NCBI RefSeq assembly: GCF_000001735.4
Contig: NC_003074.8
Location: 5,580,101 to 5,644,100 of the forward strand
Direction of reading: 5' to 3'
Length of the DNA: 64,000 nucleotides
From: Arabidopsis thaliana
Taxonomy: Eukaryota > Streptophyta > Magnoliopsida > Brassicales > Brassicaceae
This document shows positions 1,476-18,108 of the stretch, in pieces; the first letter of the stretch is position 1, and every line of letters starts with the position of its first letter. Below the pieces are notes generated by a model. It had not been told where the DNA came from and searched no databases. It worked only from the letters and a program-made list of their open reading frames with translations. Position numbers and translations under genes: made by a program.

Positions 1476-1490
1476 CTCGTGGATCACGAA
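1476..1490. promoter_or_regulatory. Palindromic element upstream of JAL31
   Basis: CTCGTGGATCACGAA is an inverted repeat of CTCGTG and CACGAa around GAT, about 240 bp before the JAL31 start codon. The same element lies upstream of the pseudogene copy, JAL33 and, with another spacer, JAL35. Function is inferred from recurrence only. Confidence 0.5.
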
Positions 1491-1729
1491 ATAATAGATT
1501 ATTATTTCTGCTAGTACGATCAATGATCCTATATGCGGATATATGGTTATATGCAAGAAGTCAATATAAACACCTATGATTCACTTAAATCGATCACAAT
1601 CTACTCACTTTTGAAGGTCATCTCTCTTTTCCTCTCTATTAGTACAAAATTGGTTAATAATTGAAAATTCACAATTTGTTTTTTTTTCCAATTATAGTAA
1701 CTATAGTAAGATTGATCAGCAAGCAAAAT

Positions 1730-2859
1730 ATGGCTCAAAAGGTTGAAGCAAAAGGAGGGAAAGGAGGCAACCAATGGGACGATGGATCCGATCATGACGC
1801 CGTGACCAAGATTCAGGTTGCAGTAGGCGGAATGGGAATTCAATACATTCAGTTCGATTACGTCAAGAACGGACAAACCGAACAAACTCCTCTTCGTGGT
1901 ATCAAAGGCAGTACCATTCCAACTGATCCGGTTCCTATACATTTTCCTTGCTTATTTGACTTCTTCTAATTTTTATAGAAAATCTATTGTTTTACGTTGA
2001 AGTATTGACATATTGAACTTGATCTCTACAGTTTGTGATTAACCATCCTGAGGAGCATCTAGTTTCTATTGAAATTTGGTATAAACCTGATGGTCTTATT
2101 CAAGGGCTTAGGTTCATATCCAACAAAAAGACTTCTCGTTTCATTGGATACGATCGTGGTACTAGATCATTTCTCCAAGTTCAAGACAAGAAGATCATTG
2201 GCTTTCATGGGTCTGCCGGAGACAATCTTAATTCTCTTGGAGCTTACTTTGCTCCGTTGACTATCCCATTGACTCCTGCCAAGCCGCTACCGGCACTTGG
2301 TAGTGATGATGGAACAGCATGGGATGATGGTGCTTACGTTGGGGTTAAGAAGGTGTACGTAGGACAAGCCCAAGATGGTATATCGGCTGTTAAGTTTGTA
2401 TACGACAAAAGCCCTGAGGAGGTCACAGGAGAAGAACATGGAAAGAGTACTCTACTCGGATTCGAAGAGGTATAATGTTTTCTTTCTCTTTTTTTTTTTG
2501 TTGTTGATGAATGTTATATACATATAGCTATATATATGCTTTGATCAGAGAATTCAAATTTTCTTTCGATTTCCATGATGACGTATTCAAGGTTCCAATA
2601 ACTGCAGTTCGTACTTGACTATCCAAGTGAATACATCATCGCAGTCGAAGGCACCTACGATAAAATCTTTGGGAGTGATGGCTCAGTCATAACTATGCTT
2701 AGGTTCAAGACTAATAAGCAAACGTCCCCTCCCTTTGGACTTGAAGCTGGCACTGCCTTCGAACTCAAAGAGGAAGGCCACAAAATCGTTGGCTTCCATG
2801 GAAGAGCCGATGCTTTGCTCCACAAAATTGGAGTTCATGTCCGTCCCGTTTCCAACTGA
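1730..2859 (+). CDS. JAL31: Two-domain jacalin-related lectin JAL31
   Basis: Exons 1730-1930, 2032-2469 and 2608-2859 join in phase 0 to a 296-residue protein. The start is [19 protein letters not shown], used by most members of the array. Domain 1 is about residues 1-143, followed by the linker [15 protein letters not shown] and domain 2 to the end. No signal peptide is seen, which fits the cytosolic location reported for PBP1-type lectins. In both domains the usual sugar-binding Asp is replaced: Asn in domain 1 ([11 protein letters not shown]) and His in domain 2 ([11 protein letters not shown]). A 5'-UTR intron runs from about 1617 to 1697 (AAG/GTCATC to TATAG). TATA-like AATATAAA lies near 1563. 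The family is known to bind the PYK10 complex. The choice of JAL31 over PBP1 rests on length (296, versus 298 recalled for PBP1) and order. Confidence 0.93.
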
Positions 2860-3373
2860 CCATGAAGATCTTTATCTTTGATTCCATGGAGATCTTTATC
2901 TTTATCTTATAAATTGGTCATTTGAGGTCTCTTCATGCCTCTGGTGACCTCTGATAAGTGTTTTAACTTTTAAGTGTTGTATCTTGTGTTGCCGGTTTTT
3001 CTTTGATGTGGTTGTGTTCCATTTTAATTAAGGAAGTTTGTTTCATCTCTTCTAATTTTTATATCCCCAAATGTTCCGATATATATTTCCCATTTGCGTC
3101 TGATACTAATTCTCTTACTATAATTAAACAAAAATCTCAATGTACGAATTGTACAATTTAAAACAAAAGTAAATTTTTTTGGATCCAAAATATAGGTGTT
3201 TTCTTTTCTCCAAAACAAAAATACCTGCGTAATTTTTTTTATCTAGATTGTGGCCAAAATATAGAAGTTTTCGGCTAAAAAATATTATTAGTTGCAAATA
3301 ATATGAGTTGGCCAAAAATAAAGAAAATAATAAAAGTATGTAGCCTTCTTGGGTAAAATAATTTAATACTCAA
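2860..3373. other. 3' UTR and spacer after JAL31
   Basis: 3' UTR followed by AT-rich spacer, with blocks similar to 600-1050 after the previous lectin gene (for example the stretch around TACGAATTGTACAATTTAAA). No gene seen. Confidence 0.55.
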
Positions 3374-3385
3374 CGTGGATCACGA
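3374..3385. promoter_or_regulatory. Palindromic element upstream of the broken jacalin copy
   Basis: CGTGGATCACGA, the core of the element also found before JAL31 and JAL33, lies about 400 bp before the ATG of the pseudogene. It shows that the duplicated unit included the promoter. Confidence 0.42.
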
Positions 3386-3786
3386 ATTATGGATTACTAT
3401 TATTTAGAATTGTGTTAATTAATTAAATAATGAGGCCTATATGTGGATCTATTCTTGAATATTAATTAGATTCTTTTTTGGTAAAATATCTTTGCTAATT
3501 CCAAGAGGTCAATAAATTAACGTACAGCCCACTCGGATGGATCACCACTTATCCTCATCCTTTATATCTCTTATGATACTATATTATAGTAAAATTTGGT
3601 TAATAGTTGCAATTAACAATTTGTTTTTTGCAGTTTTAGTAACTCCTAAGAAAAAATGTTTCGTAGTCTAGTGGTTGTTTTATAGATTAGAGTCTTATTG
3701 GTGAACGGTTTAAACTTTAGATATTTTTTTTCACTTCACTTCTTACCCCAAAAAAAACTCCAAAGATTGGTAAAAATCAAACAATG

Positions 3787-4350
3787 ATGGCTCAAAAGGT
3801 GAACTTGGTAGTGATAAAAGAACTGCATGGGACGATGGTGGCATGGTGCTTACAACAGTGTTAAGGTGTATATATGTCAAGGCCACGATTGTCGATTGTG
3901 TGTCCACGGTTAGTTTGAGTATGCCAATGCTTCTCAAGTTGTTGCTGGAGATGAACACGGAAAGAGGTACTTATATATCGCTGCGGCCTAAACGGGCCAA
4001 ACGCATTTTGAACCCATTTATTTTATAACTTGGTTGGTCGAGATACGGACTTTTTTTTTAATAAGTGACCCGTTTAATCCCACAACTTCCCTAGGCATTG
4101 TGGTCTTTGACTATTGTGACTATACTAGTTATTTTATACCTTCTTAAAGTCAGACCGGTTTCCATCGGACAAGATTAAGTTGTTTTGCTTGATTTCATTG
4201 TAGTTCGACATTGATTATCCAAGTGAATACATCACCGCTGTCGATGGCACATGCGATTAAATCTTTGGAAGTGACTCTGCGGTCATTATCATATGCTTAG
4301 GTTCAAGACTATTATGCGAACATCTAATCCCTTTGGTCTTGAAGCTGGCA
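3787..4350 (+). pseudogene. Truncated jacalin-related lectin pseudogene
   Basis: The copy opens with ATGGCTCAAAAGGTG (MAQKV), like JAL31-33, but five codons later jumps into sequence matching the start of domain 2 (AACTTGGTAGTGAT...GCATGGGACGATGG). Most of domain 1 and its introns are therefore deleted. The frame is lost within about 15 residues. A donor-like AGAG/GTAC follows the GAACACGGAAAG motif near 3966, and an acceptor TTGTAG opens the last exon at 4204, which matches the [13 protein letters not shown] exon. In that exon TAA replaces the codon after TGCGAT, and small indels follow. Homology stops at 4350 (GAAGCTGGCA), where filler and a LINE fragment begin, so the 3' end is missing. 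It sits between JAL31 and JAL32 in the same orientation. Confidence 0.9.
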
Positions 4351-4362
4351 AGACTATTATGC

Positions 4363-4692
4363 CAAAGGGATTAAATCTGATGATGATGGGAGAATCATAA
4401 TGATCCTTCAGTTCTGACCATAAAACTTTTCGCTCCTCCACGTAGTTTGAAGCATAGACAAAGGAACAGAAAAATTCATCCTGTCGATCTTCTAGCTTCA
4501 CCGAACAAGTCAGCAATTGACCACTCTTATAAATAGGACTAAGTCGCACATTCTTACGCCATAGAACCCAAATACGACCCCGTCTATTGTGCTCATAATT
4601 AGTGAGAAGCGACCAATCCTTGAAAAGCTTACCAACAAGCTGCGAAACCTTACTCTCCTTTACTCTCGTTTCAACCAAGCAACCAAACTTGA
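4363..4692 (-). mobile_element. LINE (non-LTR retrotransposon) endonuclease-domain fragment
   Basis: The minus strand encodes about 105 residues typical of the apurinic-type endonuclease domain of plant LINE elements: FGCLVETRVKE, then a W-S-L-L-x-NYEHNRRGRIWVLW block, a YKSGQLLTCSVKL block and EFFCSFVYASNYVEERKVLW. No reverse transcriptase, poly(A) tail or full target-site duplication is seen, so it is a short fragment rather than a complete insertion. One end abuts the broken jacalin copy through a short filler made of copied jacalin pieces (4351-4373). The ORF is open across this block but has no start context and no other LINE domains. The call rests on recalled family motifs. Confidence 0.72.
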
Positions 4693-5711
4693 AAAAAGAT
4701 TAGTTATTAGAATTATAATTATCGGTAACCTTGAAATCACCATGAAATTAATTTTCTTGTTATATTCTTATCCTCTTCTTCTTTTTCTTAGCAATTTTTT
4801 CTTCATATCCTTTTTTTTATTAGTAGTCTATTGAGAGAAGTTTAATACAACAGTAGAGTAGAATGATATAACATTACTACTTGAAATAGTTGTTTGCGAG
4901 CGAATTCATGTTTTGTGAAGAAAATCGTTTTTCAAGTATTTTATTACCCCTAGCGGATTTTTTATAAGAAAACTAAATTTCCGCAATCTGGATCTTGAAT
5001 AACACGCGTAGACAACACACCACGTCAACGAGTTTCAGGGTCGACGTACACGTCAACTTTAACGTTTTATAGAAGATTTTGAATTAGTATGCTGATCCAT
5101 TTTTATAACCCCAATCTGACTAAAGATCGCGATTCACGAGTCGCGAAACAACGAGATACTTAGGCACAAATCTTTCTTGCCACATTCAGGCACGCAATGA
5201 TGTACGCTAGACTATTTTTTTGCTGTCAACAACTACTGAAAAATGTTTTTGTTTTCTTTTCTTTTCTTGGTTTGATATATTAAATTGCGACAACATTAAC
5301 AATTATCAAATCTTGTAGAATATTGAAATGAAACAATGTAATATCCTGAAACACAATTTCCCCATCTTGAAAACTAAAACTTCATTGGCAAAATAAAATA
5401 AAATGAAACCTCATCTTATTTCCGACAAAATCAGTCATTAGAAGTTTTTCGTGCTTCAAGATTCCAATGACCACAAGTAATATAAATCTATACCAAACCA
5501 AATTTGACTACCATCCGTTTGCAATTAGAATTCAATTTTCCTTTCATGTTACTATTTCAAACAGAAACATGCCAAAAATGGAACTTACCTCATTATGTCC
5601 GATAACTAACCGTTATGCTACTCCTTAAGAAACGTGTGCTACTATCATATCATTAATACACAAATTCAACTCATTTGCTTCATATTCACAACAATTTAAT
5701 AGTTTCACGTA
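4693..5711. other. AT-rich spacer before JAL32
   Basis: No coding signal. It holds scattered half-sites such as TTCACGAGTCGCG near 5134. From about 5660 the sequence becomes similar to the JAL33 promoter (8177 onward), sharing CATTTGCTTCATATTCACAAC. Confidence 0.5.
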
Positions 5712-5732
5712 TCGTGGATATATCGCGAGATT
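5712..5732. promoter_or_regulatory. Degenerate palindromic element upstream of JAL32
   Basis: TCGTGGATATATCGCGAGAT aligns with the JAL33 element TCGTGGATCACGAGAT but has extra bases in the spacer and CGCGAG for CACGAG. It lies about 260 bp before the ATG, the same position as in JAL33. Confidence 0.35.
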
Positions 5733-5986
5733 ATACAATATCTTCTATTAATTAATTGCTGGCATGATTGTAAAAAAAAAAAAAAAACTGCTGGCATGTA
5801 TTCAAAAAAATCAATATATACCCCCATGCAGTTCTTCGTAGATGGATCACTCGACTCTTTCTATCTATCTCTTATCAGGTCAAATCTTATTCTCTCATAT
5901 CTGATAGTATTTTTGTAAATATTGGTTATTAAAAAATTGTGTTCGTAATTACAGGTAATTCGAAAGACATCAAAAGCAAGCAAAAG

Positions 5987-7441
5987 ATGGCTCAAAAGGT
6001 GGAAGCACAAGGAGGTATTGGAGGAGATGTATGGGATGATGGTGCTCACGACGGCGTTAGAAAGGTGCATGTAGGGCAAGGCCTTGATGGTGTTTCGTTT
6101 ATCAATGTCGTGTACGAGAATGGTTCACAGGAAGTTGTAGGAGGTGAACATGGAAAGAAGTCACTAATTGGAATCGAAACGGTACGTAAAAATGTTTTGC
6201 TTCGAATCCACTAATCTTGTCTTTATTTTGCTTAAGTTTATATTATATGTTCTTAAAACTACTAAACTCTCAATACTAGGGATATAACGTTATGATAGGA
6301 TAATAGCTCGCGGACCATCCAATTAGCCATGTTTAGAATTTAGGTCGTATCAGTTCTAATGATTAATTATAGTTCTAAAGCCAAACCTAAATATTAAAAA
6401 TAAGAACCAATAATTACCAGACCAATTGACGCCTTATACGTATAATTATGGTTCTAACAAGCCAAACCTAAACCTTAAACTATTACTCAATATATCTTTC
6501 TATTTTTGCAGTTTGAGGTTGATGCAGACGACTACATCGTAGCAGTGCAGGTGACCTATGACAAAATATTTGGCTATGACTCCGACATCATCACATCCAT
6601 AACCTTCTCTACATTCAAGGGAAAAACCTCGCCACCCTACGGATTAGATACCGAAAATAAGTTTGTACTCAAGGAAAAGAACGGTGGCAAACTTGTTGGG
6701 TTCCATGGACGCGCTGGCGAAATTCTATATGCTCTTGGAGCGTATTTTACTACAACCACAACTCCTTTGACTCCTGCCAAGAAACTACCGGCTGTTGGTG
6801 GTGACGAAGGAACTGCCTGGGATGATGGTGCTTTCGATGGTGTTAAGAAAGTGTATATAGGGCAAGCCCAAGATGGTATATCGGCCGTGAAGTTTGTGTA
6901 CGATAAGGGCGCCGAGGATATTGTAGGAGATGAACATGGAAATGATACTCTACTCGGATTTGAAGAGGTATAATACTTCTTGCTTTCTTCTCTTGTGGTT
7001 GAATGTGAAATGTTTTTACAAAATGATATGAATATCTTACACAAAAATATGCTTGGGTAAGGGAATCCACATAAACTTTCGTGGATAAAATCATGCATAT
7101 TTTATATTAGCTAGTGTTGAATATCTCCATTTTTGATATAAAATATTTTAACTAACTCAATTGTTTTATTTGGTTTCCATCAATTGCAGTTCCAACTTGA
7201 CTATCCAAGTGAATATATTACTGCAGTTGAAGGCACATATGACAAAATATTTGGTTTTGAGACTGAAGTCATAAATATGCTTAGGTTCAAAACTAATAAG
7301 AAAACGTCTCCTCCCTTTGGAATTGAAGCTGGCACAGCCTTCGAACTCAAAGAAGAAGGTTGCAAGATCGTCGGGTTTCATGGAAAAGTAAGTGCGGTGC
7401 TTCATCAGTTTGGAGTCCATATCCTTCCTGTCACCAACTGA
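5987..7441 (+). CDS. JAL32: Two-domain jacalin-related lectin JAL32
   Basis: Exons 5987-6181, 6512-6967 and 7190-7441 give 300 residues in phase 0. A 5'-UTR intron lies at 5879-5954 (TCAG/GTCAAA to TTACAG). Domain 1 ([19 protein letters not shown]) ends near residue 145. The linker [17 protein letters not shown] joins domain 2. Both domains lack the canonical sugar-site Asp: Tyr in [11 protein letters not shown] and His in [11 protein letters not shown]. There is no signal peptide. It has the same length and exon structure as the next gene (JAL33), so the two are a recent pair, with matching promoters. Expected role: a cytosolic lectin acting with the PYK10 beta-glucosidase complex, by family knowledge only. 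Confidence 0.92.
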
Positions 7442-8224
7442 TCATCACATATATATATATATATATATGTCTCTTCTATACCACCAAGTTTGTCACGTGT
7501 GATATCTTCATTAAGTTTTAAGTTTTCTAATTTTTCTTGTTCTGTTTATCTATGTTTTAAGTGTCTTTAAGTATGGTGTTTTGTGAAGTTGTTATGCCTG
7601 TAATATTATATGTGATTGGCTTTAATAAAAGTGGGTGATTATTATACATATCAGTTGCACATTAGGAGAAAAGCTTATATTCATACTCAGTATCTCGGCA
7701 TCTAGTGTATGATGGAAACAATTATCTTTAAGACTTTAGCATTATTTAAAGTGAGAAACAAGAAAACTTCGCCATAATTGGAGAATTGGTCATTTTGATC
7801 AAAATCCAACACCAGACTACGCGCAGTCCGTTTCGAAGGAGGTACACTCCACTTAGTATCTAGATTTAATTTATTATACAGTATGTTTAATTTTTTTTTT
7901 TTTTCAAACACATATTTTTCTTCTTAAGAATATATATGGAAATATAATATGTTAATTATGTAATGATCAAATAATATTAAAACACACATATATATATATA
8001 TATAAACCATATGAGCAATTGGATAACGGGTAAAATCTAACCAGGTTTCAAAAATTGTAACTATTGTTGATTTTTTTTTTTTTTTGATCAACAACTATTG
8101 TTGAGAAAAACATGTATTATGTGAGCAAAGGAAAAAAAGGGAAAAAAAACTACAGATCAGTAATATCAACTACTCCAATTCAACTTATTTGCTTCATATT
8201 CACAACATTCTAATATTTTAATGA
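7442..8224. other. 3' UTR and spacer between JAL32 and JAL33
   Basis: Contains the JAL32 3' UTR, an (AT)n tract, AATAAA near 7623, long T and A runs near 7890 and 8072, and AT-rich spacer. No gene seen. Confidence 0.55.
7449..7469. repeat. (AT)n microsatellite in the JAL32 3' UTR
   Basis: An uninterrupted AT dinucleotide run just after the JAL32 stop codon. A second, shorter AT run lies near 7988-8004. Confidence 0.9.
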
Positions 8225-8239
8225 CTCGTGGATCACGAG
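8225..8239. promoter_or_regulatory. Perfect palindromic element upstream of JAL33
   Basis: CTCGTG-GAT-CACGAG has perfect 6-bp arms and lies about 255 bp before the JAL33 start codon. Half sites resemble E-box-like bHLH targets. The ER-body regulator NAI1 is a bHLH protein, but binding here is inference. Confidence 0.55.
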
Positions 8240-8492
8240 ATTATATTAACATTTCTATAGATTAATTAGTGGCCTACATTCAATGATATCAATAATTACA
8301 CATTTTATCCAGAAATAAAAATAATCAATAAATACGCATGAAGGTCATTGTAATGCATATCAATAACTCGTTCCCTCTCTCCTCAGGTAAATTCTCAGTC
8401 TCTCGTCTGATAATAGTTTTGTAGAGTTTGGTTAATAAAACTAATCGTGTACGCTACTAATACGTACAGGTAACTAATTAATATTCAAAAAG

Positions 8493-9692
8493 ATGGCTCA
8501 AAAAGTGGAAGCAGGGGGTGGCGCCGGAGGAGCTTCATGGGATGATGGTGTCCACGATGGCGTTAGAAAGGTGCATGTAGGGCAAGGCCAAGATGGTGTG
8601 TCATCTATCAACGTCGTGTATGCGAAGGACTCTCAGGATGTTGAAGGAGGTGAACACGGAAAGAAAACGTTACTTGGATTTGAAACGGTATGTAGTGGTG
8701 TTTGCTACCACTCTCTTTGAGTTTAACTTATTAGCCTTGTTCGGATCAGTTTTAAAGCTTTGTAAAATGAGAACCAATTAAGACTAGACCAATTCACACC
8801 TAATACGGTCTAGATTGAGTTAATCTATACAACATCTCTACTCACGAGAGGTATCTTTTCGATCATTGCAGTTTGAGGTTGATGCAGACGACTACATAGT
8901 AGCAGTGCAAGTGACCTACGACAACGTGTTTGGCCAAGACTCTGACATCATCACATCTATTACCTTCAATACATTCAAGGGAAAAACATCTCCACCCTAT
9001 GGATTGGAAACGCAAAAGAAGTTTGTACTCAAGGACAAAAACGGTGGTAAACTTGTTGGCTTCCATGGACGCGCTGGTGAAGCTTTATATGCTCTTGGAG
9101 CATATTTTGCTACAACCACAACTCCTGTGACTCCTGCCAAAAAACTATCTGCAATTGGTGGTGATGAAGGAACTGCATGGGACGACGGTGCGTACGATGG
9201 TGTCAAGAAGGTGTACGTAGGACAAGGCCAAGATGGGATATCAGCCGTTAAGTTTGAGTACAACAAAGGCGCGGAGAATATCGTAGGAGGTGAACATGGA
9301 AAGCCTACTTTACTCGGATTCGAGGAGGTATTTTTTGTTTTTGCTATCAAAATTCAAAATATGTTGTATCTTTTCATTTTCTTAAAACTAATTGACAGTA
9401 AGCAGATTGATCTATATGATTTAAAATCCTTTAATTGCAGTTTGAGATTGACTATCCAAGTGAATACATCACCGCAGTTGAAGGCACCTATGATAAAATC
9501 TTTGGGAGTGATGGCCTAATCATAACTATGCTTAGGTTCAAGACTAATAAACAAACGTCTGCTCCCTTTGGACTTGAAGCTGGCACAGCCTTCGAACTTA
9601 AAGAGGAAGGGCACAAGATCGTTGGCTTCCATGGAAAAGCCAGTGAGTTGCTTCATCAGTTTGGAGTCCATGTCATGCCACTCACCAACTGA
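8493..9692 (+). CDS. JAL33: Two-domain jacalin-related lectin JAL33
   Basis: Exons 8493-8687, 8872-9327 and 9441-9692 give 300 residues. The 5'-UTR intron is 8387-8469 (TCAG/GTAAAT to TACAG). Domain 1 is about residues 1-145 and domain 2 about 155-300, joined by [17 protein letters not shown]. Canonical sugar-site Asp is replaced by Tyr ([11 protein letters not shown]) and His ([11 protein letters not shown]). From memory, the solution structure of this protein (At3g16450) has been determined and shows tandem beta-prism domains. Intron positions after GFET and GFEE match JAL32 exactly. Poly(A) signals AATAAA lie near 9857. No targeting signal is visible. Confidence 0.93.
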
Positions 9693-12600
9693 TCACATTA
9701 CAGCTACCTCCTTCGCTTCCATCGAACTTGTTAATGTGATCTCTTGAAAATAACTTGTTATACCTATGATGGTTATGCCTATCTATGTTTAAATGTTTTT
9801 AAGCGTTCTCTTTTGTGATGTTGGTCTTTATATAATGTTACGTATGATAGATTTGAATAAAGGTGGTTGATTCCATCCCTATAAATTGCACATTAAGTCC
9901 CATCGTGAACAACGTTCGATCCATACTAAATTAAGTTACTGCAAGTGTGTTTAGCGTATTCAGATTAACATTTTACTGAATTAATTTTGTTTTAGGTAAA
10001 GACCCGCGAATATATGTTTAATATGTTTAAATGAAGTCCAATTATTACATGGGGACTATAGATCATATAATCATAGATTAAAGTTCATTATTGTTTAGGT
10101 ATAAATAAAAGTTTTTTGAAAATAGTATTAGGTTTTGTAAGTAAAAATTGGTTAATTGGGTGGTCATGATCATACTGATAAAAAAATGAAAGTATATGAA
10201 AAAAGGATTGTTGGAATGTATTAATTTGGCTCGGCTTTGGCAAACCTGGGATAGATTGCGTCCTAACTTTTAGTGATTTGGCATTTAGGCCTTACCAATC
10301 AACTGATCCAGCCCATGTAATGCTAATCTTGGAATTTTCCCTTTTTGAAATTCAGTTTGCAATATATTAATCTTGGATTTTTCCATCTTTCTAATTGATT
10401 TACAATATTTTTATATTGGATCAGCCGCGTAAGGAGGAGATCTGATCTGATCTGATCCACACACGTCTCACGAGTGTAGTAGGCTCGACGTGCTCAAACT
10501 CAAAGTGTGATAACGTATTTTTTAAGCTTAAAAGAAGTCATCATTATTGTTATCTGTCTCAATAGAAATAAACGCCACGAGATCCACGAGTCGCATTTTT
10601 TTTATTTTGCCAAAAGTCAAAAATATGTTTCCATATATATCTTCGGAAATTAAGAAGAATTAGATTTTAATCTGCGGTATACCGCGGGGACAATTTATCT
10701 TTTTAAAGTTAGTATAATTTTTTTTTGCAAATTATATCTATTTATAATATATTTTTATTTTATAGTTTACAATTATTATTAAGTAACGTACTGCCAAACC
10801 CGTCCCGCCAAACCCATCCCGTAAAAAAACCATTTATTTATATTACTGTTGATCTTATTTATGATATATTTATAAATCATTGTCTATATATTTTTGTCGA
10901 TGCGGGACGTTGAACCCACACATTTTTTGCCAATTGGTTAATATATGTTCATTTTTAAAATTTTGAATCATAAAATATGATGGAAAAAATTAAGATTTTT
11001 TTAAACTCTATATATTATATAATGATGTTAAAAATTATGATATATCAAACTTTTTATAAGTTTAAATATTAATAATGTTTTATAAATTTTAAATATATAA
11101 ATAATAATATTTAAAAAATTAATATGTTTGTTTATAAAGTAATGACATAATAACTCTAAAAGCAAGGATTTAGAAGATTTAAATCTTTAATTAAATATTT
11201 TCATTAATAAATAATTAATGTCAGTGACATGACATTGTAAATAAGTTCAAATACAAAATTTATTTATTTAAACAAAAAACGTTTAGTAAGAATAATATTT
11301 ATTTAACAAAAAACTTTGTTTTAAAATATTGTTAACAAATATGTTTATGCTAATTTTAAGGGATTGATTTGAAGTTTGTTAGGATTAAATTTGATTGATA
11401 ATGTGATTGACAATTTAAATAAAAAGTTTAAAGTAAAATTAATTATTTTGGAAAAAAAAATTAATGCTAATGACATTAGATCGTAAATAAGTTCAGGATT
11501 TATTTGCTAAAATAGCTACAAAAATGTATATATAGATTTCAAAATATACTTTTTTAATCACTATTTTTTCGTGGAGTAGCTGTCTACGAATGTTCTATCC
11601 AATACATTCGAACACGTGATTGTTCGTTAATTTTCTTGATTCTGTAAGAGAAACAAAAAATATAGATGTCCAACTTTTTTTTTCGGGTGGGAATATAGAC
11701 GTCCAGCTTAGCTACGTACTGAATAATTCAAAGTTCCAAACTAGTATATATTAATACAATTGACGATAAGGTCATAAGGATCGATGGATTCCAACGATTC
11801 GATACAAGTATTAATGAAATAAGATAACACGATTGTGACAGCAAACTCTATATTGATATTTCTATTTTTTAATTAGCCATGCGTTGCACGATCAATTTAC
11901 AAAATAATAAAAGAAAATGATCGATCAAAGAGCATTCCATTGAAATTTAATTCCATCCTGTAATCACATAATTTTGGGCCCAATCCTATTTTTCAAATGT
12001 AACATGCTATTACATAGTCACATAGAACATCCTAAAATAGGGTTAAAATGTACTTTTATCTATTTGCAATTTTGATATTTTCCTTTCTGAAAAAGATTAG
12101 TATATGGCAAATTATCTTTTAGATAAAAGATCTTTTGTTCTGACTATACATTAATTTATTTTAAAAAAAAAACTTAACAGATATATTTGCAAATACAAAA
12201 TGATGAAAAATAAAAGGGATACCATAATCTAAAATCTGACAAAGAAAATATACAAAAAGTCAATTACGATACTTAGAAAAAGAACTATATATTTTTGGGT
12301 AGGGAAGTTCAAAAACAAATTACCGATTTGCTGACTATATGAGCAATTATTACATACTTTTATTTATTTGTACAACAATTATTACACATACTTGTGTGGA
12401 CCAACATGATTAATTTTATATTGGCCATATGGTGCGTAGTAAATGTTATAATAACTTGAAATTAAATAATAACTAAGCTCGACTCGATATATAGATCCAA
12501 CCAGTAGCCTCTCTTATTCACACCTAATCTTCATCTTCATCTTCGCATTCATAGTCTCTACGATCAGGTAATCCCCCTCTCTCTATCTATCTTTCATATA

Positions 12601-12928
12601 TGTGTGTATGTGTAAACTATCTATATTCTGAAAATAGATCAATCAATTGATCTTTTCCTATCTCAATTGTTTTCACAACCATCAGTTTGACTTTTGATCG
12701 TTTAAGGCTCGAGAGAATTATCATTCACTGTAGTAAAGATAGTTTATACCAACAAACCCATTTGGTGTTGACCAGCTTTCAACATAAGTATGAGTTAGAG
12801 CTAGAACCGGATTAGTATTAATGTTACTTGTACCTGTTCATAGTACTAACCAAAAATGATCCAAAAAAATGAAAATAACAAATAAACCATTTATGGTTAT
12901 CACAGATAGATAAAAGAAGTCAACAACG
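9693..12928. other. Long AT-rich spacer with repeat remnants and the JAL34 promoter
   Basis: No gene seen. Features: the JAL33 3' UTR; three tandem copies of CTGAT near 10441-10457; a direct arrangement CACGAG-ATC-CACGAG near 10575-10590; a hairpin with a Helitron-like end (10672-10690); diverged direct repeats sharing TGTAAATAAGTTCA/CGTAAATAAGTTCA near 11236 and 11483; and a G-box CACGTG at 11613. The JAL34 5'-UTR intron is 12568-12905 (TCAG/GTAATC to TCACAG), with TATA-like GATATATAG near 12488. Confidence 0.5.
10662..10690 (-). mobile_element. Possible Helitron 3' end (hairpin plus CTAA)
   Basis: On the minus strand the 12-bp palindrome GCGGTATACCGC is followed by AGATTAAAAT and then CTAA-T, the arrangement expected at a Helitron 3' terminus (hairpin, about 10 bp, CTRR, host T). 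The element would extend toward higher coordinates through the AT-rich DNA. A 5' TC end was not located, and TCTATATATACA on the minus strand near 11535 is only a candidate. Confidence 0.35.
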
Positions 12929-15422
12929 ATGTCTTGGGACGATGGATCACACGCAAAGGTGAAGAAAGTGCAGCTAACCTTCGATGAGATCATCTACTCA
13001 ATCCAGGTCACGTACGACGGAGCCACCGCTCTTCAATCCCAGCTTCGCGGCTCCGTTGGTCCCAAATCTGCTGAGGTTTGTGGAAAAAAACACACTAAGA
13101 TCACTTATTTTTACAGATATAATGTGTAATTTTTTTGTTAAGTTAATTAACTTTAATGTCATATACATACATAATCAGTTCACTTTGGCTCCGGACGAGT
13201 ACATAACGGCCCTTTCTGCTTACGGCAAATCGTTGAGTACGCAAGAAGTTATTACGGCGTTGACTTTCACAACCAACAAGACTTCTTATGGACCTTACGG
13301 TACCAAATCCGGTTTCCAGATTTCTGCTCCGGAAGCCACCGGTAAACAGATCTCCGGTTTCCTTGGTACCAGCGGCAATGTTCTCAACACCATCGACGTT
13401 CACTATTCTCCCATACCTACTGGAGGAACTGGCACCGGAGGAACTGGCACCGGAACTGGCACCGGAACTGGCACTGGAACTGGCACTGGCACCGGAACTG
13501 GCACTGGAACTGGCACTGGAACTGGCACCGGAGGAACTGGCACTGGAACTGGCACCGGTACTGGAGGAACTGGCACTGGAACTGGCACCGGAGGAACTGG
13601 CACTGGAACCGGCACTGGGACTGGCACTGGAACCGGCACTGGGACTGGCACTGGAACCGGCACCGGAGGAACTGGCACTGGAACCGGCACCGGAGGAACT
13701 GGCACTGGAACCGGCACTGGGACCGGCACTGGGACCGGCACCGGAGGAACTGGCACTGGAACCGGAACTGGTACCGGTTCAGGTGCTCAGAAATTGGAAG
13801 CACAAGGCAACAGTACAGGAGGTACATCATGGGACGATGGATCCGATTACGATGGCGTGACCAAGATATACGCAAGCTACGGTGGGGAAGGTATTCAATA
13901 CGTCAAGTTCGACTATGTGAAAGGTGGAGTAACAAAACAAGGAGTTCTACACGGTAAACAACAAAGTAGACAAAATCCAAGAGAGGTAAGCTTACGTACA
14001 ACTTTCTTTCAAGGTTTCTAACTATATTTTATACAAAGATTATATTACTGACATTGTGAACCCTTTTTAATTTTTTGGGTAGTTTGTGATTAACCATCCG
14101 GATGAGTATCTTGTTTCTGTTGAGGGTTGGTATGAAACCGTCATGCTAGGAATCCAGTTCAAAACGAACTTGAACACTTATGAGGTCAGCATCTATCCTT
14201 TCGAACCTAGTACTGATACTAAATTTACTCTTCAAGTTCAAGACAAGAAGATCATTGGATTTCACGGTTTCGCGGGCAACCATGTTAATTCCATTGGAGC
14301 TTACTTCGTTCCAAAATCCTCCACCACTCCTGTTCCTTCAACCCCTTTGAAGCTGACCGCAGAAGGTGGTGAGACAGGAGCTGTATGGGACGATGGTTCT
14401 CACGATGATGTTAAGAAAGTTTATGTAGGACAAGGCCAAGATGGTGTTGCAGCTGTCAAGTTTGAATACAAAAATGGTTCTCAGGTTGTTTTTGGAGATG
14501 AACGTGGAACGAGAACATTGCTAGGATTCGAAGAGGTATGCACGCTTAAGACCAACTATTTTTATTGGTTTCCCTTTTCAACTAATTTCACTATTCATTA
14601 TGCATTTATCTATGTAGTTCGAGCTTGAATCAGACGAATATATAACATCCGTGGAAGGATACTACGAAAAAAACTTTGGAGTTGATACTGTAGTGACAAC
14701 GCTGATTTTCAAGACTAGCAAGAACAAAACAGCTGGACCGTTTGGGATTGTATCTGGCACAAAGTTTGAATTCAAGAAGGAAGGTTACAAGATCACTGGG
14801 TTCCACGGACGAGCTGGTGAGTATGTTAATGCTATTGGAGCTTATTTAGCTCCATCAGGCACCACCCCTTTGACTCCTGCAACACAATCCCAAAAGCTAG
14901 AAGGAGCTGGTAGTGAGGCAGGAACTTTATGGGATGATGGTGCTTTCGACGGTGTAAGGAAAGTGTCTGTAGGACAAGCCCAAGATGGTATTGGAGCGGT
15001 CTCGTTTGTGTACGACAAAGCAGGTCAGGTTGTAGAAGGAAAAGAACATGGAAAACCCACATTGCTTGGATTTGAAGAGGTATACTTTATTAGTTCTTGC
15101 TTTCTCTTTCGTCGTTTAACCGTATAGTTTATTATCCTCAATTTTGTTCTTTTTTGTGCTTCTTGAATTGCAGTTTGAGCTTGACTATCCAAGTGAATAC
15201 ATCACGGCAGTTGATGGCACCTACGATGCAATCTTTGGGAATGAACCAATCGTAAATATGCTTAGGTTCACGACTAATAAGCGAGTATCTATTCCTTTTG
15301 GAATAGGAGCTGGCACAGCCTTCGAATTCAAGAAGGACGGTCAAAAGATAGTTGGTTTCCATGGAAGAGCTGGTGATCTACTTCACAAATTTGGAGTCCA
15401 TGTCGCGCCAATAACCAAATAA
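12929..15422 (+). CDS. JAL34: Four-domain jacalin-related lectin JAL34 with Gly-Thr linker
   Basis: Exons 12929-13075, 13179-13985, 14083-14535, 14618-15079 and 15174-15422 give 705 residues, all phase 0. Domain 1 starts abruptly at [14 protein letters not shown] and lacks the usual MAQKVEAxGGxGG segment. An in-frame TAA lies shortly upstream, so the start is not further 5'. Residues about 131-249 are almost only Gly and Thr, encoded by 12-bp-type repeats. Domains 2, 3 and 4 follow, separated by [12 protein letters not shown] and [11 protein letters not shown] linkers. The last residue before each intron is Glu and the next exon starts with Phe, as in the other JALs. Canonical sugar-site Asp is Asn in domains 1-3 and His in domain 4. 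Domain 2 most resembles domain 1 of JAL31, and domains 3 and 4 resemble the two-domain genes, so JAL34 looks like a fusion of a solo domain with a tandem unit. Confidence 0.93.
13422..13779 (+). repeat. Coding minisatellite for the Gly-Thr linker
   Basis: About 360 bp of GGAACTGGCAC(C/T)-type repeats with GGAGGAACT interruptions inside JAL34 exon 2. Every unit keeps the reading frame and gives Gly-Thr or Gly-Gly-Thr. Such arrays vary in length by slippage or unequal exchange. Confidence 0.95.
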
Positions 15423-15439
15423 TTATGGAGATTTTAAGT

Positions 15440-16042
15440 ATCTTTTGATGATAGTTTACACACTTTGAATAAGCTGATTCTACTTTATTTCTCTCTGTTT
15501 GTTTACTGCTTCAGTGTTTTAAGTCTTCTCTTTGTGTTTGTTGCTGTTGTGTCTTTGATGGATTTTTGTGATCCGATTTAATAAAAGAAGTGTGTTCAAA
15601 GTAATTCTCTAGTCTCTTTATTTGAAATTCCGGGGATAGCAGATTGGTTTCCGCAACATTGACTCCAAGTTTATAATGATCTTGATGATGGTCTAAAAGT
15701 TTTGAATAAGCTGACTCTAATTTACTAGGTTCTGTTTGTTTATATACCTTCAGAGAGTTTCAAGTCTTCTCGTTGTGGTCTTGTTCTGTTTTCTTGATGT
15801 GATTTCTTATTCATTTTAACAAAAGAAGTTTGTGCAAAGTCACAATGCAGAAACCCACTTTATTTAGATTTTAGATAAGCAAAGCACACAGATGCATTAT
15901 CCTTAAGAAAAACAAAATACAACACTAGACCACAACTTCATAAACTCACAACATAACCTTATTCAAATTTCAGGGATATCCAGATTGGTTTCACATCATT
16001 TGGCTATGGGCGCAACATTGACTCCAAGTTTGTAAAGATATT
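15440..16042. repeat. Tandem duplication of the JAL34/JAL35 convergent junction
   Basis: Bases about 15457-15601 (TTTGAATAAGCTGATTCTAC...AAAAGAAGTGTGTTCAAAGT, JAL34 3' UTR) recur with changes at 15700-15841. Between them, 15624-15675 (GGGGATAGCAGATTGGTTTC...GCAACATTGACTCCAAGTTT) matches the true 3' end of JAL35 at 15971-16032. The unit is therefore JAL34 3' UTR plus the JAL35 tail, about 240 bp, present twice. The inner JAL35-like fragment is not functional because it ends after about 50 bp. Confidence 0.8.
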
Positions 16043-17609
16043 CACCAGCTTGTCCATAGAAACCAACGATTTTGTGGTCTTTCTTCTCCAGTACGAATTC
16101 AGTTCCTCCCTCGAGTCCATACGGGATAGATGTTCTCTTGTTTGTTTTAAACTTAAGCGAGACGATTGCCGGGGCATCTACACTAAAAATCTTGTCATAG
16201 TAGCCCGACACGGCAGTGACATACTCATCTGGTCCAAGCACAAACTGCACGTTTTGCAACAAAATTAAAGACTTTAGGTTTCTAGATCAATAACTATAGA
16301 AAACAAGATTTGAAAATGAAATCAAGATTACAACCTCCTCTGCTCCAAGCAATGTCTTCTTCCCATGATCACTTCCAAGGACAGGCTTTGAAGCCTTTTC
16401 ATAGTCAGCTTTGAAATAGGTCACACAAGAGTCACCTTGTCCAACATATATCTTCTTGACACTGTCGTGAACACCATCATCCCAAGCAACTCCACCATCT
16501 CCACCTTGTGCTGGAATAGTATTGGAAGAAGGAGTCAATGGTGTGGACGAAGGAATAATATAAGCTCCTAGAGAATGGATCAGATCACTTGAAGTTCCAT
16601 GGAATCCAACGATTTTGCCGCCTCCTAGCTCAGCTTCTTCTCCAGAGGTTAGTCCAAACGGCTGAGAAGTTTTTCCTTTGAATGTCTTGAATATAAGAGC
16701 TGTGACGATCTCTATCGGTGACCCGAAAAGTTTCTCGTAGTAAACTTTCACATAGGTGATGTAGTCTTCAGGATCAATCTCAAACTGCAAAAACAAAAAC
16801 ACATCAATACTAGAAAGAAAGAAAAAAAAAACTTTTGGGCAATTTCAAGAAATACAAAGATTTGTGTACCTCCTCTGTTCCAAGTAGTGTTTGCTTCCCA
16901 TGTTCAAGTGATACAATCTTACCATCTTTCTCGTAATCAAACTTGACATAAACAACACCAGAGTCACCTTGTCCAACATAAACTTTCTTTACATTGTCAT
17001 AAGCACCACCGTCGTCCCAAACATCTCCACCACGACCACCTTGAGCTTCCAATTTGGTCAGACCACCTGATACCGGCGGAGTCAGCGGTGTAGTCGACGG
17101 AATTATATAAACTCCAACAGAATGGATCAAATCACTTGAACTTCCATGAAATCCAACGATTTTGCCACCTCCTAGCTCAGCTTCTTCTCCAGAGGTTAGT
17201 CCAAAAGGCTGAGAAGTTTTCCCCTTGAATGTCTTAAAGATTAGAGCCGTTACGATCTCTATCGGTGATCCAAAGAGCTTCTCGTAGTAAATTTTCACTG
17301 ATGTTATGTAATCTTCTGGATCAACCACAAACTAGCAAAAAAAAAAAAAGACAACCAAAAATGATCAGTTAATGTTGATGACAAGAGAACTCTCATTGAA
17401 AACAAAATATTTACCTCCTCTGTTCCAAGTAGTGTCTGCTTCCCATGTTCGTGTGATACGATTTTTCCATCTTTCTCGTAATCAAACTTGACGTAAACAA
17501 CACCAGAATCACCTTGACCAACATACACTTTCTTGACGTTTTCGTAAGCACCACCATCGTCCCATTCTTCTCCTCCACGACCACCTTGAGCTTCCAACTT
17601 TTTCGCCAT
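15996..17609 (-). CDS. JAL35: Three-domain jacalin-related lectin JAL35 (JR1)
   Basis: Exons on the minus strand are 17609-17415, 17331-16870, 16784-16335 and 16244-15996, giving 451 residues. It starts [20 protein letters not shown]. Three jacalin domains are separated by linkers of the [11 protein letters not shown] type. Domains 1 and 2 are very similar (both contain VGQGDSx[21 protein letters not shown] and [13 protein letters not shown]). Domain 3 ends GVNVAPIAK. The G-x3-D Asp is His, His and Tyr in the three domains. It converges on JAL34 and is the only minus-strand member. A 5'-UTR intron lies near 17892-17625 (CAAAG/GTGTTT to CTTTAG). JR1 was named for jasmonate and wound response. 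No signal peptide is seen. Confidence 0.94.
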
Positions 17610-18093
17610 CTTTTCTTCTTAACCTAAAGTTATAGTACCCATTTCTTAGAAACTGTAAACGCACAAGAGCCATGAACAGACACTACTCAAGCACTTTCAT
17701 GATGATGAAACTAATCTAATCTGAGGACTATAATACTTCCACTAGGACATTACTTTAAACAATGGTATCATATTCTCATAGATTCATTATCATATAAAGA
17801 AATTCAATAATTCAAATAAAACTAGTAAAAATCAATATAACGATTTTGTGAAAGAAAGAAAAAAGGAGTACATTAAAGGGAAGGAAGAAACACCTTTGAG
17901 TGTGAGAAATGGAGATGAAGATGGAATATGAATGAGTTAATCTTGGGATTTTGTATATATACTATATAGTATATATAAAACATTTTTGAATACGAACATT
18001 AAATTCTCTTTTCATCCAATACTAACCACTTTTTTTTTCTGCCAATACTAACCACTTTTTCTTTTCTTTTTGAGAGACTTTATATTCAACCAA

Positions 18094-18108
18094 CTCGTGC
18101 TTCACGAG
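18094..18108. promoter_or_regulatory. Palindromic element upstream of JAL35
   Basis: CTCGTG-CTT-CACGAG has perfect 6-bp arms with a 3-bp spacer and lies about 490 bp before the JAL35 ATG (about 200 bp upstream of the 5'-UTR intron). It shares arms and spacing with the JAL33 element although the genes point in opposite directions. Confidence 0.5.

Follow-up and report, generated by a model that had tools for sequence, protein, structure and literature searches.

Two facing N-boxes across three base pairs upstream of Arabidopsis jacalin-lectin, PYK10 and nitrile-specifier genes: a probable bHLH element

The stretch analysed here, called the window, is 64,000 nucleotides of Arabidopsis thaliana DNA (contig NC_003074.8, positions 5,580,101 to 5,644,100) and carries a run of jacalin-lectin genes that we take to be the JAL30-JAL35 cluster, the genes being named by way of their translated frames and Pfam matches. 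Upstream of these genes lies a palindrome, CTCGTG-N3-CACGAG, that a first-pass annotation had placed at five sites. We found it at all five: two copies are exact, one has a single mismatch and two are decayed. The coordinates given for the copies at 1476, 8225 and 18094 held, and those of the other two were shifted; the broken copy, put at 3374-3385, spans 3372-3386, and the JAL32 copy, put at 5712-5732, spans 5711-5729 with a spacer of 7. As had been claimed, the JAL35 copy precedes a minus-strand gene and keeps all 12 arm bases around a spacer that differs from GAT. Positions below are window coordinates unless marked C3 (contig 3), and distances run from the start of a copy to the ATG.

1476..1490, plus strand: JAL31 copy, CTCGTGGATCACGAA, 11 of 12 arm bases (1 mismatch), 254 bp 5' of the ATG
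1730..1732, plus strand: start codon of JAL31
3372..3386, plus strand: decayed copy 5' of a JAL remnant (ATG 3787), AACGTGGATCACGAA, 9 of 12 arm bases (3 mismatches)
5711..5729, plus strand: degenerate JAL32 copy, ATCGTG-7-CGCGAG, 10 of 12 arm bases, spacer 7 instead of 3, 276 bp 5' of the ATG
5987..5989, plus strand: start codon of JAL32
8225..8239, plus strand: JAL33 copy, CTCGTGGATCACGAG, exact, 12 of 12 arm bases, 268 bp 5' of the ATG
8493..8495, plus strand: start codon of JAL33
10576..10590, plus strand: direct pair CACGAG-ATC-CACGAG between JAL33 and JAL34, 2.35 kb 5' of the JAL34 ATG and distant from both start codons, which may or may not belong with the palindromes
12929..12931, plus strand: start codon of JAL34
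17607..17609, minus strand: start codon of JAL35
18094..18108, minus strand: JAL35 copy, CTCGTGCTTCACGAG, exact, 12 of 12 arm bases, 499 bp 5' of the minus-strand ATG

Exact palindromes number two in the window and none in 100 dinucleotide shuffles. When up to three mismatches are allowed the window holds 21, whereas shuffles average 6.9 and never exceed 15. Isolated three-mismatch places are close to chance level, and the copy at 3372 is counted only because its promoter aligns with those of its neighbours. The gene behind that promoter is an apparent jacalin gene remnant (3787-4400) between JAL31 and JAL32. The 1 kb 5' of the JAL34 ATG contains neither the hexamer CACGAG, known as the N-box, nor a palindrome at up to two mismatches. 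JAL34 itself has a long Gly-Thr-rich stretch (13420-13790) encoded by short GGCACTGGAAC-like units, as read by eye. For several of the genes discussed here, name and locus are printed together in PMC5518230: PYK10 (AT3G09260), PBP1 (AT3G16420), JAL33 (AT3G16450), JAL34 (AT3G16460) and NSP1 (AT3G16400).

The palindrome is rare, and its spacing is far from random. A scan of the whole genome (119.66 Mb) found 13 exact copies, compared with 2 for the reversed control, and a single copy of the everted arrangement. With spacers of 0 to 30 bp the same arms occur at 62 sites (46 for the reversed control), 13 of which have a spacer of 3, when other spacings average 1.5-1.6; the excess has a P-value of 9e-9 to 2e-8, which becomes 3e-7 to 6e-7 once all 31 spacings are corrected for. 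Among the 50 of 62 matches listed, spacer 3 occurs twelve times, spacer 0 five times and every other spacer at most three times, the thirteenth spacer-3 site lying on C5. Such a fixed spacing is what a site for paired dimers would be expected to have. One of the five spacer-0 pairs, on contig 3, was inspected and lies inside a cytochrome-P450-like frame.

In the scan that the first-pass annotation had proposed, exact copies gather at NSP1, JAL33, JAL35, JAL22 and PYK10. Six of the 13 lie within open frames, one some 50 bp beyond the point where a COBRA-like frame ends, and six between genes. Five of the six frames were scanned with Pfam; three gave matches (AP2, 2-hydroxyacid dehydrogenase and COG7), there was no match for the two that we name copia-like and acyltransferase-like, and the sixth frame resembles the AP2 frame. 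Five of the six intergenic copies stand 264-675 bp 5' of a start codon, at NSP1 (-264), JAL33 (-268), JAL35 (-499), JAL22 (-600) and PYK10 (-675). Near copies precede JAL30 (-246), JAL31 (-254) and BGLU22 (-341) with one mismatch and NSP4 (-240) with two; one-mismatch copies at named genes are those among the matches listed or in the scanned promoters. PYK10, JAL22 and BGLU22 are far from the JAL30-JAL35 cluster. No palindrome at up to two mismatches was found at BGLU21, NSP3 or JAL34 or in the promoter of NAI1, the bHLH (basic helix-loop-helix) gene proposed as the regulator. First exons of PYK10, BGLU21 and BGLU22 matched Glyco_hydro_1, and those of GLL23 and GLL25 Lipase_GDSL, below the Pfam cut-off only. 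Frames of retroelement-like appearance hold one exact and, among the matches listed, two one-mismatch copies; a retroelement origin of the promoter copies was rejected, since these differ in spacers and flanks.

We then set these positions against genes reported to depend on NAI1. The available passages of PMC3947992 name PYK10, NAI2, MEB1, MEB2, JAL22, JAL23, JAL31, JAL30, GLL23, GLL25 and ML3. For this set we used 1 kb of each of 11 promoters; a MEB1-like gene (L029), one of several MEB-like genes on contig 4, stands in for MEB1, and ML3 was located from coordinates and translated frames, as a family search matched neither ML3 nor the controls. Two of the 11 exact copies outside the window precede listed genes, PYK10 and JAL22, which, if uniform placement is assumed, has a P-value of 2e-7 to 4e-6 when the upstream limit is set anywhere from 700 to 3000 bp. 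The predicted enrichment in NAI1-dependent genes was thus borne out in part: the exact copies are non-randomly associated with such genes, but only 4 of the 11 promoters have the palindrome within one mismatch (two exact, two with one mismatch).

The half site by itself is also over-represented in this set. At least one N-box occurs in 8 of the 11 promoters and none in 3; in all there are 11 N-boxes where 1.8 are expected (P-value ~3e-6), and none of 500 Markov simulations reached 11 (maximum 6). The background for this figure was 97 kb (window 20001-64000 and 17 other loci, selected sites excised), with coding and non-coding DNA mixed. Counting each palindrome once gives a P-value of 1e-4, and dropping JAL23, JAL30 and JAL31 as paralogs as well leaves 5 N-boxes against 1.3 (P-value 0.011). 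The last value weakens the N-box line of evidence; the placement and spacing of the palindrome are independent of it. N-boxes without a palindrome are found in the promoters of JAL23, GLL25, ML3 and MEB2, and the single N-box of JAL23 stands at the position of the JAL22 palindrome. In the MEB2 promoter (L048:2115-2131) two direct N-boxes with a spacer of 5 lie about 200 bp 5' of the ATG. Among the other MEB-like genes, a single G-box occurs at L036 and one at -300 at L050, and neither gene has a palindrome at up to two mismatches.

The identity of the half site points to a class of regulator. The arms had been described as E-box-like; this was mistaken, as CACGAG is the N-box hexamer and contains no CANNTG. 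Both arms are exact N-boxes in five promoters. It has been reported that the N-box is bound by clade IVa bHLH factors, of which NAI1 is one of four Arabidopsis members (PMC6528166, PMC7833464 and PMC9562455, in the passages available), and in related systems (Medicago TSAR1/2, Catharanthus BIS, rice DPF) the half site is identical to the palindrome arms. Our own comparisons agree with this family assignment: the first exon of NAI1 has a Pfam HLH match, and the best alignment of its bHLH domain among solved structures is to MYC2 (chain 5gnj_G). The site had also been read as bound by a dimer. Each arm, however, makes up a whole 6-bp bHLH site by itself, and the element would then hold two dimer sites and not the two halves of one. 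A single dimer of another family, such as NAC or VOZ, might instead sit on the inner core CGTGNNNCACG, which is itself palindromic. Those families and similar ones bind gapped palindromes. We give this explanation very little weight: the half site is a known bHLH site, N-boxes also occur in four of the NAI1-dependent promoters that lack a palindrome, and the outer CTC/GAG bases are retained in five promoters, although this last point is partly a product of searching for exact copies.

By alignment NSP1, NSP4, JAL30, JAL31, the broken copy, JAL32 and JAL33 form one duplicated promoter family. When six family copies are compared, identity in the arms is 151 of 180 pair-positions, in the spacers 27 of 45 and in the two 15-bp flanks 108 and 99 of 225 each, a comparison that is biased by motif anchoring and not sharp; the conserved block continues for a few bases beyond the left arm, and a mask shifted by 1-2 bases scores 104, compared with 106 of 120. 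The spacer GAT is common to JAL30, JAL31, JAL33 and the broken copy, and goes with the duplication; other spacers are found at NSP1, JAL35, JAL22 and PYK10. Across JAL22, PYK10, JAL35, JAL33 and NSP1 the spacers differ and all 12 arm bases are identical.

Flanks of the PYK10, JAL22 and JAL35 copies are 29-41% identical to those of other copies, most pairs being within the shuffle range, and the PYK10 and BGLU22 copies lie at non-aligned positions. In the flank test as a whole, the similarity of 7 of 36 pairs was equalled by no more than 12 of 400 shuffles, a larger number of pairs than expected. The JAL30/JAL31 similarity among them is clear homology, and the remaining pairs may reflect A/T-run composition or remote kinship. 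It could be argued that the element is a functionless relic of duplication in the JAL/NSP cluster, joined by chance copies elsewhere, given the single promoter family, a conserved block that overruns the left arm so that shifted masks score nearly as well, and PYK10 flanks somewhat similar to other copies. In view of the differing spacers and low flank identity at PYK10, JAL22 and JAL35, the unaligned positions at PYK10 and BGLU22, and a spacer-3 excess and promoter placement far from chance, we consider this highly improbable.

Taken together, we judge it probable (roughly 0.6) that the palindrome is a functional cis-element of two facing N-boxes across 3 bp that serves as a site for two bHLH dimers, the likeliest factor being NAI1 or a clade IVa relative. 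That the N-boxes face each other across a constant gap suggests a pair of adjacent dimers. Each arm would be a complete 6-bp bHLH site with its CAC half inside and its CTC half outside; two dimers of NAI1 or of the clade IVa factors bHLH18, 19 and 25 would bind next to each other, 9 bp from centre to centre, and neighbouring dimers would help each other. The pair would thereby make a strong, selective site for genes of the PYK10/ER (endoplasmic reticulum) body and nitrile-specifier defence module. NAI1 would probably bind here, and the two dimers would probably both bind and cooperate. A more specific version, in which two NAI1 dimers act as a tetramer on a dedicated ER-body box that separates PYK10-complex genes from single-N-box promoters, is a tentative and rather doubtful idea; the copy near FAMA described below would then link the ER-body and myrosin-cell myrosinase systems.

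Several observations weigh against this reading. The preference for inverted over direct pairs is weak, since direct pairs occur 17 times over both strands (about 8.5 when scaled to the palindrome) and are nearly as common; across the genome, sites with one mismatch taken together show no enrichment (102 compared with 106 in the control). Seven of the 11 NAI1-dependent promoters have no palindrome within one mismatch in 1 kb; that of NAI2 has only a G-box, 129 bp 5' of the ATG, and those of GLL23 and the MEB1-like stand-in have neither box. JAL33, JAL35, NSP1 and BGLU22 are outside the NAI1-dependent list that we used (PMC3947992, in part). Furthermore, independence of all copies is not certain: just 6, 12, 3 and 9 of 400 shuffles equalled the flank similarity that PYK10 shows to JAL22, JAL33, NSP1 and BGLU22 respectively, and PYK10 may share a remote kinship with them. 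Co-regulation is also broader than the element. In pial1 pial2 mutants protein levels of PYK10, PBP1/JAL30, JAL33, JAL34, GLL22 and NSP1 go up, and the available part of PMC5518230 describes most of the increased proteins as under NAI1 control. The joint rise of PYK10, PBP1/JAL30, JAL33 and NSP1 speaks for the main reading, but JAL34, which lacks the palindrome, rises with JAL33 and PYK10. PYK10, PBP1 and NSP1 have been reported to respond in opposite ways to manganese and iron deficiency (PMC5090222, in part).

The NAI1 proposal is further qualified by JAL35, which has been reported within a jasmonate/MYB47-MYB95 gene set, and which is co-expressed with BGLU18, as is JAL23. JAL35 and MEB2 are reported to be induced less strongly by jasmonate in myc2,3,4 and myb47,95 mutants, which also speaks for MYC2/3/4 or another jasmonate-responsive factor as the reader of the element, the more so as the bHLH domains of NAI1 and MYC2 align. 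TSA1, a gene of the jasmonate branch, is reported to be unaffected in nai1, whereas the palindrome marks genes that require NAI1. The preferred site of MYC2, for its part, is the G-box, and we regard a jasmonate factor as very unlikely.

The sixth intergenic copy raises a different candidate. It lies at C3:8723459, flanked by a frame and a bHLH gene that are both on the minus strand. We take the bHLH gene (Pfam HLH match) to be FAMA; the copy is 5.84 kb 5' of that gene's first identified exon, with no frame longer than 120 amino acids between. FAMA is a master gene of myrosin cells and guard cells. As this sole remaining intergenic exact copy is upstream of FAMA, the bHLH group that runs the other myrosinase system, FAMA, SPCH or MUTE with SCRM, might read the element through CTCGTG. 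The passages available from PMC11928322 describe a FAMA chromatin immunoprecipitation signal near CTCGTG of the WSB promoter and binding of FAMA to a piece of the SCAP1 promoter in which CTCGTG occurs twice, and cite SPCH as using the same motif, which counts against the clade IVa assignment. The FAMA sites given there are single or start 59 bp apart, with no N3 pairs; PYK10, JAL22, JAL30 and JAL31 are NAI1-dependent (PMC3947992); and ER bodies are reported in nearly every epidermal cell of seedlings and roots, beyond guard or myrosin cells. Binding by the FAMA group thus appears unlikely.

Facing N-boxes read by clade IVa dimers would also differ from the systems already described. Clade IVa N-box reports, in the passages available, credit the CYP93E2 promoter with more than one N-box but give no spacing or palindromic layout, whereas the two N-boxes here face each other with a constant gap of 3 bp. 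The NAI2 promoter, with G-boxes bound by NAI1 (Sarkar et al. 2021, in part), is likewise a NAI1 target with a bHLH site, but the box is a different one and is without a palindromic pair. The CTCGTG motifs of WSB and SCAP1 share the hexamer and the connection to a myrosinase defence system, but are single or widely spaced and belong to a bHLH subfamily other than that of NAI1. Full-text searches of open papers, as far as the passages go, yielded no description of the palindrome at these genes, which is weak evidence of novelty.

Direct pairs with the same spacing were looked at in their own right, and the surroundings of 3 of the 17 were inspected: that at window 10576, one in a terpene synthase promoter and one in an apparent intron of a cation-exchanger-like gene. 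Four N-boxes lie within 670 bp 5' of the terpene synthase start codon (C3:9438612-9438841), two of them forming the direct pair with spacer 3, which recurs 8.3 kb away at C3:9447009. We presume this gene to be TPS-CIN.

Target choice by NAI1 has so far been described only for the NAI2 G-boxes, as far as the literature passages go. The palindrome could account for PYK10, its lectin partners and a nitrile specifier being controlled together, and a 15-bp element with 13 copies per genome, five of them in promoters of a single defence module, lends itself to testing by mutation. If the reading is correct, it would provide a specific example of a spacing grammar among plant bHLH factors.

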